Shown here piece by piece: positions 50,357 to 62,249 of a stretch of DNA of 64,000 bases. Made by a program: the position numbers and the translations under genes. The stretch's first letter is position 1, and each line of letters opens with the position of its first letter. The notes under the pieces are model-generated. The model saw only the letters and a program-made list of their open reading frames with translations. It was not told the DNA's origin and did no database searches. Origin of the DNA: Caldinitratiruptor microaerophilus (GTDB lineage: Bacteria > Bacillota > Sulfobacillia > Symbiobacteriales > ZC4RG38); the NCBI RefSeq assembly GCF_025999835.1, contig NZ_AP025628.1:1-64000 (forward strand), in the 5' to 3' direction.

Positions 50357-52162
50357 ATGCCCTCTCAGACATTCCGTCGGTTGGCCTGGGCAACGGTGAT
50401 CGCGACATACCTCCTGATCGTCCTGGGAGGCGCTGTCAAGGCGTACGGCGCCGGCCTTGCCTGCCCCGACTGGCCTCTCTGCCACGGACGGGTCATCCCG
50501 CCGCTGGACGGCCTCGTCCTGCTCGAGTACGGCCACCGGCTCGGGGCGACGGTCGTGACCGCCCTGGCGGTGGCGACCACCGTGGCGGCGTTCCGCAGCC
50601 CCGGCCCGAGAGGCCCCTGGGTGCGGGGCAGCCTGCTGGCCCTGTTCCTCCTGGCGGTGCAGATCGTCCTCGGGGGCCTGACCGTCCTCTACACCCTACC
50701 GCCCGCCATCGTCTCCTCCCATCTGGGGGTGGCGAGCGCCTTCCTGTCCGTCTGGATCGTGATGGCCGTCTCGGCCGGGACGGCCACCGGAGAGCGCCAG
50801 ACCTCCGCCCGGCGGCCCGTGTGGGTGGCGACCCTCGTGGCGGCGCTCGCCGTCTACACGACCATGGTGGTGGGCAGCTACATGAAGTCCGCCGGGGCCG
50901 GCCTGGCGTGCACCGACTGGCCGCTTTGCGGCGGGCGGCTGATCCCGGAGGGCGGCTGGGCCGTCATGCTGCACTTCGGTCACCGGGTGGCGGCGCTGGT
51001 CGCAGGGGTGCTGGTGCTGTACGCGGCGTACCAGGTGGTCCGGCACGCAGCCAACGTCCTGGCGCTCGTGGTTCCTGCCGGGGCCGCCGCCGGACTCGTG
51101 TTCATCCAGGTGCTCCTCGGGGGTGCCGCCGTACGGCAGGCCTTGCCGCCGGCGCTGACCGTGACTCACCTGGCGGTGGCGGCGGGCCTTCTCGCCACCC
51201 TGGTGGCGCTGACCACCGCCGGCTACCGACTGGCTCCCGCCGGGACCGTTCCGCTGGACCTGGAGGAGCGCCCGACCGAGTCGGAGCGGCGCCGCCCCGG
51301 CGTGGTGGCCCTCGACTACATCCGCCTGATGAAGCCCCGGATCGTGCTGCTCCTCCTCATCACCGGCTACGCGGCGATGTGGCTGGCCGCGCGGGGAGCG
51401 CCTCCCCTGCGGCTCACGCTTCTCACGCTCGCCGGCCTCTCCCTCACCTGCGGCGGCGCCAACGCGGTGAACATGTGGTGGGACCGGGACATCGACGCCG
51501 TCATGACCCGGACCCGTTCCCGGCCGCTTCCCGCCGGCCGGATCCCCCCCACCGGGGCGCTGGTCTTCGGGCTCGCCGCGGGCATGATTGGTGTCCTGGT
51601 CCTCGCCTTCGGCGTCAATCTCCTGGCCGCAGCGCTTGCCCTGTCCGGTTACCTCTTCTACGTGCTGGTCTACACGATGTGGCTCAAGCGCTCGACGGCC
51701 CAGAACATTGTTATCGGCGGCGCCGCCGGGGCCGTGCCGCCCCTCGTGGGCTGGGCGGCGGTGACCGGGACCGTGGGGCTGGCCGCCCTGCTGATGTTCC
51801 TGGTCGTATTCCTCTGGACCCCGCCCCACTTCTGGGCCCTGGCGCTCTTCCGCAACGACGACTACCGCCGCGCCGGCGTCCCCATGCTGCCCGTGGTGCG
51901 GGGCGAGAACCACACGAAGTGGCAGATCCTCATCTACACGCTGCTCGTGGTGCCGGCCTCGCTCCTCCTGTACTGGACCGGCGTGGTGGGGCCGTTCTAC
52001 CTCTGGGTGGCGGCGCTCCTCGGGGCCTGGCTCATCTCCGCCTCCATCGCCCTTCTGCGGGAGCGGCTCCCCGCCCAGCGCTGGGCGCACCGGGTCTTCG
52101 GCTACTCCATCCTGTACCTGGCCTTCCTCTTCCTGGCGATGGTCGCCGATGTGCAGCCGTAG
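50357..52162 (+). CDS. Fused heme A synthase - protoheme IX farnesyltransferase (CtaA-CtaB)
   Basis: A 601-aa single polypeptide. Residues ~1-300 form a CtaA/Cox15 heme A synthase (oxidises heme O to heme A) with GAGLACPDWPLCHGR (~32-46), its repeat GAGLACTDWPLCGGR and HFGHR-type His pairs. Residues ~315-601 form a CtaB/Cox10 heme O synthase (farnesylation of heme B) with the prenyltransferase motif NMWWDRDIDAVMTRTRSRPL (~371-390), TPPHFWALALF (~494-504) and YRRAGVPMLPVVRG (~508-521). The two activities are sequential, so the fusion may channel heme O. ATG 50357 has a hairpin over the SD (AGGAGGGCCTCCT). It lies in the oxidase operon. Confidence 0.93.
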   Translation: MPSQTFRRLAWATVIATYLLIVLGGAVKAYGAGLACPDWPLCHGRVIPPLDGLVLLEYGHRLGATVVTALAVATTVAAFRSPGPRGPWVRGSLLALFLLAVQIVLGGLTVLYTLPPAIVSSHLGVASAFLSVWIVMAVSAGTATGERQTSARRPVWVATLVAALAVYTTMVVGSYMKSAGAGLACTDWPLCGGRLIPEGGWAVMLHFGHRVAALVAGVLVLYAAYQVVRHAANVLALVVPAGAAAGLVFIQVLLGGAAVRQALPPALTVTHLAVAAGLLATLVALTTAGYRLAPAGTVPLDLEERPTESERRRPGVVALDYIRLMKPRIVLLLLITGYAAMWLAARGAPPLRLTLLTLAGLSLTCGGANAVNMWWDRDIDAVMTRTRSRPLPAGRIPPTGALVFGLAAGMIGVLVLAFGVNLLAAALALSGYLFYVLVYTMWLKRSTAQNIVIGGAAGAVPPLVGWAAVTGTVGLAALLMFLVVFLWTPPHFWALALFRNDDYRRAGVPMLPVVRGENHTKWQILIYTLLVVPASLLLYWTGVVGPFYLWVAALLGAWLISASIALLRERLPAQRWAHRVFGYSILYLAFLFLAMVADVQP

Positions 52163-53098: not shown

Positions 53099-54586
53099 AT
53101 GGCTCGCACCGCAACGCAGGAGTTGGGCAATGAGAGCGTTCGCATGGGTCTGGGTCCGCCGATGGACCTCGCAGAACTGCCGGCACCGCCGCCATTCAAT
53201 TTGCGTAACTTCGTCAAGATGCTCGGCGTCGGTGCCATCCTGGTGAGCGTTTCGATCGGCAGCGGCGAGTGGCTGCTGGGTCCGGCGGCCGTGATCCAGT
53301 ACGGCCCACAGCTCCTCTGGATCGTGACCATCGCCACCATCCTGCAGACCGTCTTCAACCTGGAAACCCAGCGGTACACGTTGTACACGGGAGAACCCGT
53401 GATGGTGGGGCTCATGCGCTTGCCCCCCGGACGCTGGCTGTGGGGGCCGCTGTGGATCCTGCTCACCGTCGTCTCCATCGGTCCCGGCTGGGCGCTCGCC
53501 TCCGCCACGGCCCTCGCCGCCATGGCCCTGGGGCGGATGCCCGAGCAGGCGGACAAGGCGTGGGTGATCGCGCTCGGCATCGTCGCCATGGTCCTCGTGA
53601 TGGCCGTCGTGTCGTTTGGCCAGCGCGTCGAGCGTACGCTGGCACGCGTGTCGACGGTTGCCATCGTCTTCATCTTTGCCAGTCTCCTGATCTTCGACCT
53701 GTGGCTCGTCCCCTTTGAGTGGTGGGGAAAGATCGCGGCAGGATTCTTCAACTTTGGATTCCTCCCTGCGGCCAAGGGCGGGCAGGGGGTCGACTGGATC
53801 CTGCTCGGTGGGTTTGCCGCTTACGCCGCGACGGGCGGCATCTTCAACATGGCGACCTCCAACTGGATGCGTGATCGCGGCTGGGGGATGGGCAGCCAGG
53901 TCGGTTACATCCCCTCGCTGATCGGCGGGCGCAGGATCGAGGTGTCGGAAACCGGAAAGGTATTCCGGCTCACGGAGGAGAATCTGCGGCGATTCTGGGA
54001 GTGGATGCGTTACGCCCGCTGGGAGCAGTGGACGCTGTACTTCATCGGGTGCATGCTGGGGATGTACTTCTCCGTCCTGCTGGCGGCAGGGCTCATCGCC
54101 CCGGGCACGAAGGTGGGCGGCTGGGCGGTGGCCGCGCGGCAGGCGGAGGCAGTGGCGCAGCACCTGGGCACGTTCGGCTGGTACTGGGTGCTGTTGATCG
54201 GTTTCTGGGTCCTGTGGGGGACGCAGCTCAACGCCACGGACGCGGCCGTCCGGCACCTGACGGACCTCCTGTGGAACCTGGGGCCGGCCTTCCGGCGGCT
54301 CGCCCGGCAGGACATCCGCCTCATTTACTACGTGATCCTGGCGGTCGTGACGCTCTGGATGGCCTACCTGTTCGTCGTCGGCACCCCACTCGGGCTGGTC
54401 CTGCTGGTTTCGAACGCGGCCGGTCTGGTGTTCGTCATCGGGGGCCTCATGGTCCTGTGGCTCAACAGCACCCTTCTCCCCCGGGAGCTCCGGCCGAACT
54501 GGGTCAACCAGCTCCTGCTGCTGTTGCTCGCGGTGTTCTACGGATTCTTCGTGTACAAGGCGATCGCGGCAGCGCTGGCAGGGTAG
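53099..54586 (+). CDS. Nramp-like (APC-fold) membrane transporter without the DPGN motif
   Basis: A 495-aa polytopic protein with about 11 hydrophobic segments. The first helix is VGAILVSVSIGSGEWLLGP (~44-62), where canonical Nramp (Mn/Fe) transporters have Asp-Pro-Gly-Asn; here that site is GSGEW. Other parts resemble the Nramp core: GPGWALASATALAAMALGR (~128-146) and GFAAYAATGGIFNMATSNWMRD. The substituted metal site suggests a different or non-metal substrate. The family placement is moderate. A 195-nt upstream region (52904-53098) has no gene; AGAGGAGG precedes ATG 53099. Confidence 0.75.
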   Translation: MARTATQELGNESVRMGLGPPMDLAELPAPPPFNLRNFVKMLGVGAILVSVSIGSGEWLLGPAAVIQYGPQLLWIVTIATILQTVFNLETQRYTLYTGEPVMVGLMRLPPGRWLWGPLWILLTVVSIGPGWALASATALAAMALGRMPEQADKAWVIALGIVAMVLVMAVVSFGQRVERTLARVSTVAIVFIFASLLIFDLWLVPFEWWGKIAAGFFNFGFLPAAKGGQGVDWILLGGFAAYAATGGIFNMATSNWMRDRGWGMGSQVGYIPSLIGGRRIEVSETGKVFRLTEENLRRFWEWMRYARWEQWTLYFIGCMLGMYFSVLLAAGLIAPGTKVGGWAVAARQAEAVAQHLGTFGWYWVLLIGFWVLWGTQLNATDAAVRHLTDLLWNLGPAFRRLARQDIRLIYYVILAVVTLWMAYLFVVGTPLGLVLLVSNAAGLVFVIGGLMVLWLNSTLLPRELRPNWVNQLLLLLLAVFYGFFVYKAIAAALAG

Positions 54587-56427: not shown

Positions 56428-57495
56428 CTACCGGGCCTCCGGTTCCTGCGAGTGACCGGTTCCGTACGCGAGGGCCATCGCCTCCACGGCGAGCCGGGCG
56501 GCCAGGAGCGAGGTCACGCCTCCGGGGTCGAGGTACGGATTGACCTCCACGACGTCGAGGCCTGCGAGGGGTCCGGCCTCCGTGACCGCCTGCAGCACCG
56601 CCCGCACCTCCTCGTACGTGAGGCCGCCCGGCTCCGGGCTCGACGTGCCGGGCGCGACGGACGGGTCCAGGCCGTCGACGTCGAGGCTCACGTAGAGGGG
56701 CTCACCGCGGGGGAGGTGACCCAGCGCGGCCTCGATCCCTGACCGGCGCACCTCCCGCATGGTGACGATCCGGTTTCCCCGGCCCACCGCCGCCGCGTAC
56801 GCCTCCGGGTTCGTCCGGATCCCGCGCACGCCCACGACCGTGATGGTGCCGACGAACGGAAGCTCGGCCGCCCGGCGGAAGGGGCTCGAGTTGGAGCGGG
56901 CGTAACCGGCCACGGTGTCGGTGAAGTCCAGGTGGGCATCGATCTGCACCACGTGGAGCCTGCGGCCCGCCCAGACGCCGCCGGACTCGAAGATCGGGGT
57001 GAGCGCGCGCAGGACCGGGTACGTCACGGAGTGGTCGCCGCCGAGCACCACGGGCACCGCGCCGGCCGCCAGGACCGCGGCGATGACGGCCGCCACGCTG
57101 CGGTCGAGGTGCTCGAGGTCGGTGTAGAGGGGGTCGGCGTCACCAACGTCGACCAGCCGGCAACCGGCCAGGTACCAGCGTCCGTCCTGGATGTCCCAGT
57201 AGCCGGGGTTATCGGGGCCCCAGGGCAGGGCGTAGCGGGTGGAGAGGTCCCGGATCGCCCGGGGGGCCAGGCGCTGGCCCGGGCGGTATCCGACCGCGCC
57301 GTCGAACGGCACGCCGAAGACGGCGAAGTGGGCGTCGCCGGGCCTGAGAAGGTCCGGGGCGACGTGCGGGGCCCGGGCGAAGGTCGCGATGCCGACGTAG
57401 GGAAGGTCGGCGCGGGGGACGGCCGGCTGGAGAGCGCCGGGGCCAGCCGGAGCCGGCTCGCCGGCCGGGGAAGGGGGCCGGAGCGCACGGCTCAT
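56428..57495 (-). CDS. hutG: Arginase-family ureohydrolase, probable formimidoylglutamase
   Basis: A 355-aa binuclear-Mn ureohydrolase. Metal-binding motifs are GGDHSVTYPVLR (~150-161), VQIDAHLDFTD (~179-189) and SLDVDGLDPSVAPG (~266-279). The extra ~40 N-terminal residues are Pro-rich. ATG 57495 overlaps the hutI stop (ATGA). Agmatinase-like enzymes share this fold, but the hut context argues for N-formimino-L-glutamate hydrolysis to glutamate and formamide. It is the last gene of the hut operon. Confidence 0.88.
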   Translation of the reverse strand: MSRALRPPSPAGEPAPAGPGALQPAVPRADLPYVGIATFARAPHVAPDLLRPGDAHFAVFGVPFDGAVGYRPGQRLAPRAIRDLSTRYALPWGPDNPGYWDIQDGRWYLAGCRLVDVGDADPLYTDLEHLDRSVAAVIAAVLAAGAVPVVLGGDHSVTYPVLRALTPIFESGGVWAGRRLHVVQIDAHLDFTDTVAGYARSNSSPFRRAAELPFVGTITVVGVRGIRTNPEAYAAAVGRGNRIVTMREVRRSGIEAALGHLPRGEPLYVSLDVDGLDPSVAPGTSSPEPGGLTYEEVRAVLQAVTEAGPLAGLDVVEVNPYLDPGGVTSLLAARLAVEAMALAYGTGHSQEPEAR

Positions 57496-58802
57496 CGTTC
57501 CCACCCGCCCGCCGGTGCGATCTTGCCGGCCTTGAGGACCGCCGCCACCCGGGCGGTACCCAGGCGGTAGGCGAGGTGCTCGTAGGACGGGGCGCCCAAG
57601 ATCACCAGGTCGGCCTGCTTCCCCGGCTCGATGCTGCCGATGCGGTCGGCCCGCTCCAGGGCGTGGGCCGCGCCCAGGGTGGAGGCCACCAGGGCTTCCG
57701 CCGGGGTGAGGCCCATCCCGAGGCAGGCGATGGCCATCACCAGCGCCATGTTGCCGGAGGGCTGGGTGCCCGGGTTGTAGTCGCTGGCCAGGGCGACAGG
57801 CACCCCCGCCGCAATGAGCTTGCGGGCGGGCGCGAAAGGCTCCCCCAGGAACAAGGCCGTCCCGGGGAGGAGCGTGGCCACCGTCCCGGCCGCGCGGAGG
57901 CGCGGGATGTCCTCGTCCCGGATGCGGAGGAGGTGGTCGGCCGAGGCGGCGCCGAGCTCGGCCGCCAGGCCGGCGCCGCCCAGGGGCGCCAGCTCGTCGG
58001 CGTGCAGGCGCGCCCGGAGGCCCAGAGCCTGCGCCGCCCGCACGACCCGGCGCGTCTGGTCGAGGTCGAAGACGCCGGCCTCGCAGAACACGTCGACGTA
58101 CTCCGCCAGGCCCTCCCGGGCCACGGCGGGCAGCATCTCGTGCACGACCCGGTCGACGTAGGCGTCCGGGTCGCCGCGGAACTCCGCGGGGACGGCGTGG
58201 GCGCCCAGGAAGGTCGGGACCACCTCGGGCAGCACGAGCCCCTCGCAGGGCCAGGTGCCGTCCAGGTCGTCGCCCGGGTCGGCCGCCCGGCGGATCGCCC
58301 GCAGCATCTTGAGTTCGTCGGCGGTGGTGAGGCCGTAGCCGCTCTTGACCTCCACCGTGGTGGTGCCGAAGCGGAGGACCTCCAGGAGGCGCTCCCGGAC
58401 GAGGCCGGCAAGCTTCACCTCGGAGGCGGCGCGGGTGTGCCGCACCGTGTCGAGGATGCCGCCCCCTGCCGCGAGGATCTCCTGGTAGGTGGCTCCCGCC
58501 AGGCGGCGGCCGAACTCCTCGGCCCGCCAGCCGGCGAAGCAGAGGTGGGTGTGCGGGTCCACGAAGCCGGGCAGCACCGTGCGGCCCCGGGCGTCGAGGG
58601 TGGCTGCCGGCTCGACCCGGGCGGCCACCTCCGCGTAGGGTCCCACGTCCACGATCCGGCCGCCCCGCACCGCCACGGCGCCGCCGGGGATCAGGCTCAG
58701 GCGGCCCTGGGCCGGCCCTGCCGGGGGCCGGCCGTCTCCTCCCACCGGAGTGGCGACCTGGGCGGCCGGACCCACGAGGAGGTCCACGCGCTGGCGCGCC
58801 AT
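57492..58802 (-). CDS. hutI: Imidazolonepropionase
   Basis: A 436-aa amidohydrolase that opens imidazolone propionate to formiminoglutamate. Metal motif FVDPHTHLCFAGWRAEEF (~77-94), the substrate loop TTVEVKSGYGLTTADELKML (~147-166, split), and His/Asp in LHADELAPLG and ADHLLRI. VALASDYNPGTQPSGNM (~331-347) holds the metal Asp. ATG 58802 follows GGGAGGTGAGG. Confidence 0.95.
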   Translation of the reverse strand: MARQRVDLLVGPAAQVATPVGGDGRPPAGPAQGRLSLIPGGAVAVRGGRIVDVGPYAEVAARVEPAATLDARGRTVLPGFVDPHTHLCFAGWRAEEFGRRLAGATYQEILAAGGGILDTVRHTRAASEVKLAGLVRERLLEVLRFGTTTVEVKSGYGLTTADELKMLRAIRRAADPGDDLDGTWPCEGLVLPEVVPTFLGAHAVPAEFRGDPDAYVDRVVHEMLPAVAREGLAEYVDVFCEAGVFDLDQTRRVVRAAQALGLRARLHADELAPLGGAGLAAELGAASADHLLRIRDEDIPRLRAAGTVATLLPGTALFLGEPFAPARKLIAAGVPVALASDYNPGTQPSGNMALVMAIACLGMGLTPAEALVASTLGAAHALERADRIGSIEPGKQADLVILGAPSYEHLAYRLGTARVAAVLKAGKIAPAGGWER

Positions 58803-58810
58803 CGCTGGCC

Positions 58811-59680
58811 TCACCTCCCCGCCGGGGCCTCGGGGCCCCGGATGTGCGCCTCGGCAGCCGCCAGGACGGGCGGGAGGGTGCCCTGCAGGCGGCCCCGGAG
58901 GTCGGCGGCGGCGCCGCGGAATTCCTCCGCGGCCCGGGCGGCCTCCGGGACGCCGAGCCGGACCAGGCTGCCGGCGTTGATCTCCACGTTGAGGAGCGCT
59001 CCCAGCACCGCCGTCTGGATGAGGTGGGCGGCCACCGCAGCGTCGCTGGCGGAGGCGGGATTCCCCCGCTCCGCCACGGCGGCCGCCAGGGGCACGAGCT
59101 CGATGGCCGTCCGGGCCACGTCCAGGGGCACACGGGCGGCGCCCATGAGGGCGCCGGCGATGGCCGCGGCCCGGGCGGCCTTCTCCGCGTCCGTGTCCTT
59201 CGGCAGCTTGTAGGCCGCCATGACCCGGTCGAACGCCGCGCTGTCGGCGTCCGCCAGGTCCAGGAGGCGGGACCGGCGCACGTCGGCCTCCCGGGCGACC
59301 CGCGCCATCTCTCCGGCGACCTCCGCGAAGCGCTTCCCTTGGCTCAGGCGGGCGACCATGGCGATGAGCCCTGCCGCCATCGCCCCGGCGAGGGCCGAGG
59401 CGGTGCCGCCGCCCGGGGCAGCGGTGCCGGCGGCGAGCGCATCGATGAACGCACCCAGCGCCATGTGGGCGAAGGAGGGGGCGGACGCCTCGCCGGCGCC
59501 CCCGGCGCCCGTTCCCGCCTGCCCCGTCGCGGCCAGGAAGGCCTCGGTGACCCGGTTCTCGAGCACCTGCTCCCGGACGCCCGGGCCGCGGCAGGCCGCG
59601 ACCAGGGCGTCCACCACCTCCTGCCGCCGGCCCTCGCTGAAGTTGGGGACACACTGGACGACCTCGACCACCGGGGCCAC
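58811..59680 (-). CDS. Formiminotransferase-cyclodeaminase with most of the transferase domain deleted
   Basis: A 289-aa protein. Residues 1-35 (VVEVVQCVPNFSEGRR, then ALVAACRGPGV) are the unmistakable start of a glutamate formiminotransferase, but the remaining ~250 residues of that domain are missing. The frame goes on with VREQVLENRVTEAFL, which looks like the end of the transferase, and from ~70 a complete cyclodeaminase (FchA/FTCD C-terminal): FIDALAAGTAAPGGGTASA (~79-97), MVARLSQGKRFAEV and SASDAAVAAHLIQTAVL. So the transferase is lost by in-frame deletion while the cyclodeaminase reading frame is kept. GTG 59680 follows TAGGAAGG. It is the second gene of the hut operon. Confidence 0.9.
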   Translation of the reverse strand: MAPVVEVVQCVPNFSEGRRQEVVDALVAACRGPGVREQVLENRVTEAFLAATGQAGTGAGGAGEASAPSFAHMALGAFIDALAAGTAAPGGGTASALAGAMAAGLIAMVARLSQGKRFAEVAGEMARVAREADVRRSRLLDLADADSAAFDRVMAAYKLPKDTDAEKAARAAAIAGALMGAARVPLDVARTAIELVPLAAAVAERGNPASASDAAVAAHLIQTAVLGALLNVEINAGSLVRLGVPEAARAAEEFRGAAADLRGRLQGTLPPVLAAAEAHIRGPEAPAGR

Positions 59681-59684
59681 CTTC

Positions 59685-61352
59685 CTACATGTTGATCCCG
59701 AGGGACGGCATCTTGATGCCGCGCTCCCGGGCCACCTGCCGGGCGTGCTCGTAGCCGGCGTCGGCGTGGCGGACGACGCCCATGCCGGGGTCGGTGCGCA
59801 GGACGTGGGCGAGACGCCACTCGGCGTTCTCGCTGCCGTCCGCCACCACGACCTGCCCGGCGTGGATGGCGTAGCCGATCCCGACCCCGCCGCCGTGGTG
59901 GACGGACACCCAGGAGGCGCCGGCGGCGGTGTTGATCAGGGCGTTGAGGATGGGCCAGTCGGCGACGGCGTCGGAGCCGTCCAGCATCCCCTCGGTCTCC
60001 CGGTTCGGTGAGGCCACCGACCCGGCGTCCAGGTGGTCCCGGCCGATGACGATCGGCGCCCTGAGCTCGCCGGTCTTCACCATGTGGTTGAACAGGAGGC
60101 CGGCCCGGTCCCGCTCGCCGTAGCCCAGCCAGCAGATGCGGGCGGGGAGGCCCTGGAAGGGCACCTTGTGCCGGGCCAGGCGCAGCCACCGGGCGAGGCC
60201 CTCGTTCTGGTCGCCGAACTCCTTCAGGATGACCTGGTCGGTCTTGTGGATGTCCTCGGGATCGCCGGAGAGCGCCGCCCAGCGGAAGGGGCCCTTGCCC
60301 TCCTCGAAGAGCGGCCGGATGTAGGCCGGCACGAAGCCCGGATAGGCGAACGCCTCCTCGAAGCCGGCCTCCTTCGCCTGGCCCCGCAGGTTGTTGCCGT
60401 AGTCGAAGACCACGGCCCCGGCCTTCTGGAAGTCGACCATCGCCCGGCAGTGCACGGCCATGCTCGCCATGGCCCGCTTCACGTAGTCCTTCGGGTCCCT
60501 CGCCCGGAGCGCCTCGGCCTCGGCCACGGTGAGACCGGCGGGCACGTAGCCGTTCAGCGCGTCATGGGCCGAGGTCTGGTCGGTCACCACGTCGGGGATC
60601 CAGCCCCGGCGCACCAGTTCGGGTTCCACCTCGGCGCAGTTGCCCAGCAGGGCGACAGAAAGGGGCTCCTTCTTGCGCTTCGCCTCATCGACCCACCGGA
60701 GGGCTTCCTCGAGGTCGGCCGTCCAGCGGTCGCAGAAGCCCGTGTCGACCCGGCGGCGGATGCGCCGCTCGTCGACCTCGATGATGAGCCCCACGCCGCC
60801 GTTCATCGTGATGGCGAGCGGTTGGGCGCCCCCCATGCCGCCGAGGCCACCGGTGAGGACGACCCGGCCGGCGAGCGAGCCGCCGAAGTGCTTCCGGGCG
60901 AGGGAGGCGAGGGTCTCGTAGGTGCCCTGGATGATCCCCTGCGAACCGATGTAGATCCAGGACCCGGCCGTCATCTGGCCGAACATGATGAGGCCCTTGC
61001 CTTCCAGCTCCCAGAAGTGCTCCCACGTCGCCCACTTCGGGACCAGGAGCGAGTTGGCGATCAGCACCCGCGGCGCCTTCTCGTGGGTCTCGAACACCGC
61101 GACGGGCTTGCCGGACTGGACCAGCAGGGTCTCGTCGTCCCGCAGGACCTTCAGAGTCTCGACGATCTTCTCGAAGGCCTCCCAGTTCCGGGCCGCCTTG
61201 CCGGCACCGCCGTACACGATGAGCTGATCCGGCTTCTCGGCCACCTCCGGGTCCAGGTTGTTCATGAGCATCCGCATGGCCGCCTCCTGCTGCCAGCCCC
61301 GGCAGGTCAGGGTTGAGCCACGGGGTGCCCGGACGGTCCGTGCCACTGCCAT
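59685..61352 (-). CDS. hutU: Urocanate hydratase
   Basis: A 555-aa urocanase with tightly bound NAD+ (urocanate to imidazolone propionate). Hallmarks are [19 protein letters not shown] (~42-60), the Rossmann-type [18 protein letters not shown] (~163-180), [17 protein letters not shown] (~235-251), [16 protein letters not shown] (~399-414) and [19 protein letters not shown] (~477-495). Length is standard. ATG 61352 follows GGGAGGCGGAG. No histidase (hutH) is seen in the window. Confidence 0.96.
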
Positions 61353-61391: not shown

Positions 61392-62249
61392 TCAGAGCGG
61401 CCGATCGGTGCCCGTCGCTCGTTCCCGTGCGGGCGGGCCGTCCGGCCGCGGGGCGACCGGGCCGGCGCGCCGCTGGGCCAGGTCCCGGGTGACCGCGTCC
61501 GTCGCCTCGCGGAGGGCGCTCAGGATCTCGGGCACCCGTTCGTCGCCCAGGCGGAACCGGGGGCCCACGACGCACATCCCCGCCACCACCCGTCCCTCCG
61601 GGTCCCGGACGGGCATCGAGATCGACCGGACGCCCCGGTCCATCTCCTCGTCGCTGATGGCGTAGCCCCTCTCGCGAACCTCCTGCAAGACGGCCTTCAG
61701 GCGGTCCGGGTCGGTGATCGTGTTCTCGGTGTAGCGCGGCAGCCCCACGGAGCGGATGACGGCGTCGACCTCCTCCGGCTCCAGGTAGGCCATCAGCACC
61801 CGGGCCGAGGCGCCTGCGTGGAGCGGCAGCACGACCCCCCGATCGAAGGAGAGGCGCACCACTTGCCGGCTTTCCACCCGCTCCAGACAGATCGCCTCGT
61901 GGCCGCTCACCTGGGTGAGAAGGACCGTTTCCTCCAGCCGCCGGCTGAGGGCGGTCATGTGCGGGCGAGCCACCGCCACGAGCTCCCTTTCCGCCGGAAC
62001 CTTCCCGGCCAGGGAGAGCAGGCGGTTGCCGAGCCAGTACCGGCTCGAGCCCGGCGTCGACGTCACGAGGCCCCAGGCGGAGAGCTTCCGCAGGTACCGG
62101 TAGACGGTGGAGGCCGGGATTCCGGCCTCCGCAGCGATCTCCGCCGCGGTCAGCCCTTCCGGGAATCGTTCGAGGGCGAACAGGATCTGCAGCCCGCGCT
62201 CGAGCGACGCGAGACTGTCTTTATCACTCTGTGATAAATGCTTTCTCAT
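61392..62249 (-). CDS. IclR-family transcriptional regulator of the hut operon
   Basis: A 285-aa IclR protein: winged helix (~15-75; SLERGLQILFAL, LTAAEIAAEAGIPASTVYRYLRKL split) and the effector-binding domain (~90-260; GVVLPLHAGASARVLMAYL, GRVVAGMCVVGP). It lies 39 nt upstream of hutU and is likely the local regulator. The start codon is uncertain: ATG 62249 has a poor SD and lies inside a palindrome. It reads co-directionally into the hut genes. Confidence 0.88.
   Translation of the reverse strand: MRKHLSQSDKDSLASLERGLQILFALERFPEGLTAAEIAAEAGIPASTVYRYLRKLSAWGLVTSTPGSSRYWLGNRLLSLAGKVPAERELVAVARPHMTALSRRLEETVLLTQVSGHEAICLERVESRQVVRLSFDRGVVLPLHAGASARVLMAYLEPEEVDAVIRSVGLPRYTENTITDPDRLKAVLQEVRERGYAISDEEMDRGVRSISMPVRDPEGRVVAGMCVVGPRFRLGDERVPEILSALREATDAVTRDLAQRRAGPVAPRPDGPPARERATGTDRPL

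Follow-up and report, generated by a model that had tools for sequence, protein, structure and literature searches.

The gene at 58811-59680 on the reverse strand of the window, the 64,000-nt stretch of DNA analyzed here, is, on the evidence of DNA and protein alignment, descended from a full-length fused formiminotransferase-cyclodeaminase (FTCD) gene via an in-frame deletion of ~760 bp. We consider it likely that the formiminotransferase (FT) domain was lost in frame as redundant, and that the cyclodeaminase (CD) domain was left either as a stand-alone cyclodeaminase/methenyl-THF cyclohydrolase without a formimino-folate supply or in the course of being lost itself. The window belongs to Caldinitratiruptor microaerophilus JCM 16183, a hot-spring bacterium with a closed PacBio assembly (PMC9933637) that consists of a single contig of 3,599,694 bases. 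The elements of the gene are as follows.

58811..59680, reverse strand: truncated FTCD gene, 289 aa, with a GTG start more likely at 59668 than at 59680
59576..59668, reverse strand: FT N-terminal remnant, residues 5-35, VEVVQCVPNFSEGRRQEVVDALVAACRGPGV, by DNA and protein homology to locus L190
59573..59575, reverse strand: deletion junction, CGG (Arg36), 3 bp replacing L190:4617-5378 (762 bp) in the DNA alignment
59530..59572, reverse strand: FT terminal-helix remnant, EQVLENRVTEAFL, 43 bp with 86% DNA identity to the L190 FTCD
58838..59464, reverse strand: complete CD domain, residues about 73-281, by Pfam, invariant residues, and predicted fold

The 289-aa protein opens with 35 residues from the FT N terminus; the FT terminal helix comes next, and a linker then leads into a complete CD. 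The Pfam FTCD_C model matched residues 76-239 with 179.8 bits (cut-off, 24.5), and the PGGG, D, D, N, and N residues that are invariant in the PF04961 cyclodeaminase/cyclohydrolase family were all retained (P89, G90, G91, G92, D146, D213, N231, and N235), which places the protein in that family. FTCD_N was matched only over positions 1-26 of 176 (residues 7-32; 23.3 bits, under the cut-off of 27) and TIGR02024 FtcD only over model positions 3-27 of 298, and a complete FT domain (FTCD_N plus the C-terminal FT subdomain, TIGR02024) is not present. Furthermore, the FT motif and the PGGG motif of CD are 74 residues apart here versus 306 to 356 in the intact fusions measured. The gene starts 4 bases past the stop codon of hutU and lies between hutU and hutI, all on the reverse strand. 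Of the two GTG codons, the one at 59668 is preceded by a better-spaced Shine-Dalgarno-like GGAAGG than that at 59680, as read from the sequence, and it may be the translation start.

The closest homologue found is the full-length, 553-aa FTCD at locus L190 of G452. This genome, from another class, is a single contig of 3,817,036 bp and may be Limnochorda-like. The 289-aa protein matched residues 6-42 and 297-551 of this homologue and lacks residues 43-296. At the DNA level, homology at the FT start spans 59576-59670 of the window (95 bp, 84% identity), and 762 bp of L190 are replaced by 3 bp, so that the net loss is 759 bp, or 253 codons, with the frame intact. Both FT ends and CD are collinear with the L190 FTCD, as a descendant of the fused enzyme would be. 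This alignment, which fixes the ends of the deletion, bears out the first-pass annotation, made from the letters of the window, in its claims that almost the whole FT domain had been lost in frame, that some 35 FT residues were followed by the FT terminal helix, and that a complete cyclodeaminase remained. When the whole genome was searched in six frames with the full-length FTCD as the query and E values up to 10, only the two known FTCD pieces were matched; the missing FT residues thus lie neither in a different frame nor at any other place in the genome, and the frameshift artefact that had been named as a refutation was ruled out, as was a hidden FT. Nor was a second copy of FT or CD found in the whole genome. 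The FT stub has an identity of 0.87 over 31 residues, which places it near the 86th percentile among pairs of intact FTs with similar CD divergence. Because the FT remnant is undecayed, a recent deletion is probable; alternatively, translation may depend on the stub as its start. Domain loss is unusually easy to see in this case because a distant relative has kept the full form.

Relative to known systems, the protein shares with bifunctional FTCD (PDB 1tt9/2pfd; L190) the domain order, the CVPNFSEGRR motif, the FT terminal helix, and CD, and the L190 gene also lies between hutU and hutI; in contrast to these enzymes, it is without FT residues 43-296 (G452 numbering), which should make FT activity impossible. 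With stand-alone FchA (formimino-THF cyclodeaminase/methenyl-THF cyclohydrolase; 1o5h and 7vg4) it shares the CD fold, the invariant residues, and the absence of an FT domain, but it carries a 72-residue leader made up of FT and linker and scores under the curated FchA cut-off (NF045657 equivalog, 151.7 versus 275 bits). Clusters of the Symbiobacterium family, from the same order of bacteria (L121, L123, and L124), also keep FT and CD within the hut cluster, but there FT and CD are encoded intact by two different genes that flank hutI, and their CD is 43 to 47% identical to that of the window.

The genes around the truncated FTCD gene are those of histidine utilization.

59685..61352, reverse strand: hutU, urocanate hydratase, upstream neighbor, by profile, with 90% aa identity to the L190 hutU
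57492..58802, reverse strand: hutI, imidazolonepropionase, downstream neighbor, by profile
56428..57495, reverse strand: arginase-family protein, presumed HutG (formiminoglutamase), whose sister-genus orthologue is encoded next to hutI
61392..62249, reverse strand: IclR-family regulator by profile, probable hut regulator by position only

The first-pass annotation had taken the arginase-family neighbor for a HutG that hydrolyzes formiminoglutamate. Its score fell below the cut-offs of both TIGR01227 hutG (128.7 versus 229.15 bits) and TIGR01230 agmatinase (162.5 versus 174.3 bits), and its best solved relative is named agmatinase. However, its orthologue stands next to hutI in the two sister-genus genomes, which have neither FT nor a HutF over the cut-off, and the window genome likewise has no HutF over the cut-off. 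Given its location and this lack of HutF, the protein is presumably a formiminoglutamase.

We propose that a ~760-bp deletion removed FT residues 43-296 (G452 numbering) and that what stayed behind was the start region with a short stub of FT, followed by the terminal helix and by a CD that the event did not touch. The SHPRMGALD region holds the catalytic histidine of characterized FTs, and since the deleted part includes this region, FT activity is gone. Its loss would be tolerable because the arginase-family protein, whose gene is the second one downstream, presumably hydrolyzes formiminoglutamate. Without FT, formimino-THF would no longer be made by the FT route; CD, predicted to fold like FchA, would then, if active, work beside FolD mainly in the hydrolysis of methenyl-THF. 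In this account, the order of events, like the functions of HutG and CD, is inferred. In bacteria without 5-formyl-THF cycloligase, that enzyme is replaced by FT (PMC3223725), and the loss of FT therefore predicts a cycloligase in C. microaerophilus; its motif did not turn up in the stretches examined, which amount to about 2.06 Mb, or 57% of the genome.

The hut clusters of relatives are consistent with this account. The window genome has the order hutU, truncated FTCD, hutI, hutG, and in G452 the hutU, FTCD, and hutI genes are followed by one for a D-Ala ligase. In the sister genus (G001 and G002), hutI is followed by hutG, whose product is 63% identical to that of the window, and neither FT nor CD is present. 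Symbiobacterium-family genomes have hutU-FT-hutI-CD, and their arginase-family proteins are only distant ones. FT plus CD and HutG thus look like alternatives, and the window genome looks like an intermediate between the two routes, that of the sister genus with hutI-hutG and that of Symbiobacterium, in which FT and CD are retained and no close hutG is present. These gene orders support the earlier proposal that a fusion enzyme is being reduced because its transferase is redundant, insofar as the HutG role, itself deduced, holds. Fusion enzymes are well known to shed domains that have become redundant, and the present case is one genome; it is a clean example of a fused enzyme being dismantled, in which related genomes allow the unshortened form to be set beside the shortened one and beside complete loss, and it serves as a natural experiment on the usefulness of CD in the absence of FT. 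Next to hutU, the sister genus has another, divergent hutU-like gene (L133:1268-2929 on the reverse strand and L161:13-1275 on the forward strand), whose product scores below the thiourocanate hydratase cut-offs and possibly acts on another substrate; in G002, this gene, an AraC-type regulator gene, hutI, and hutG stand in a row.

AlphaFold2 predicted CD with a pLDDT of 90 to 99 over nearly the whole domain, mostly 94 to 99, and Foldseek matched the model to FchA 7vg4 (TM score of 0.93 on the target), FTCD 1tt9, and TM1560 1o5h. Only 3 of 29 conserved CD columns differ, and two of these three also vary in Chloroflexi FTCDs; a dead domain is thus unsupported. Divergence from G452 was compared between CD and HutU by NG86 dN/dS and at four-fold sites. 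CD is 67% identical to its G452 counterpart while HutU is 90% identical, and other pairs with a HutU identity of 88 to 93% have a CD identity of 75 to 89%. The dN/dS is about 0.34 for CD, whose synonymous sites are at saturation, versus 0.13 for HutU. CD may therefore already be under weaker constraint. Whether it is simply useless, a transitional remnant heading for the complete loss seen in the sister genus and adding nothing to FolD, we put at somewhat below an even chance. The absence of FT and CD from the sister genus, the lack of any remaining formimino-THF source, the presence of FolD, and a CD that diverges faster than HutU would predict are what such a remnant would show. FolD and Fhs (formate-THF ligase) are both present in the genome, which speaks for our main account, but with FolD present no essential role of CD is apparent, which, like the seemingly weaker constraint on CD, counts against it. 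On the other hand, the open frame, the operon position, and the invariant CD residues are all retained, and identity to outgroups is barely below that of the G452 CD (41.8 versus 43.5%). We favor a CD that, as modeled, is folded and potentially active, and of little or optional use.

Common ancestry of hutU and FTCD with a lineage of another class, which goes beyond what the first-pass annotation had seen, is indicated by the L190 comparison, in which DNA identity is 87% over 1640 bp of hutU and 73% in CD. HutU is 90% identical to that of G452 and 74% to that of the sister genus, whereas HutI is about 57 to 59% identical to that of the sister genus and 55% to that of G452; these unequal identities within one operon therefore point to a mosaic, whose hutU-FTCD end was probably exchanged horizontally with a Limnochorda-like lineage. 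At four-fold sites, 39% differ in HutU (saturation, 50%) and 54% in CD (saturation, 55%), which supports unequal histories of the two, and in the FT remnants 52 ± 10% of such sites differ, a value assignable to neither history. A more elaborate history, which we hold to be possible but rather doubtful, is that a hutU-FTCD segment shared horizontally joined a resident hutI-hutG pair, that FT was then deleted as redundant, and that the orphan CD was recruited as a methenyl-THF cyclohydrolase expressed via the old FT start.

That the deletion is unnatural, introduced either by faulty assembly or by a mutation that became fixed while the sequenced strain was in culture, appears quite improbable to us. 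The truncated architecture was found in no second genome among 154 from its class, a sample of 398 from the phylum, and 73 from the class of G452, and in none of the retrieved genome-collection loci or plasmids searched; confinement to one genome and an undecayed FT remnant would fit such an origin. The assembly is, however, a single closed PacBio contig (PMC9933637), the junction is exact and in frame, no FT sequence lies elsewhere in the assembly, and an in-frame gap of 759 bp is an atypical error for PacBio data, which speaks for our main account. Equally unlikely is that the FT stub and helix still serve a function, whether in oligomer contacts, docking of a partner, or coupling of translation to hutU, and form the new CD architecture that had been raised at first: the stub residues are well conserved and hold the start signals next to hutU, but the stub and linker are predicted with low confidence (pLDDT of 37 to 73) and the stub without any strand, a recent deletion accounts for the conservation, and the architecture is absent from any second genome among those searched. 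No paper on such a truncated protein turned up in the literature searched.

Several other genes were noted along the way. The hutH gene is located at G000:C1:3204750-3206120, about 455 kb on the circle from the other hut genes, and lies near glycolate oxidase genes and the formate-THF ligase gene. At 53099-54586, the window encodes a hydrophobic, transporter-like protein of 495 aa without a Pfam match at an E value of 0.001. At 50357-52162, one 601-aa protein combines a CtaA/COX15 heme A synthase domain with a UbiA (CtaB-type) prenyltransferase domain.
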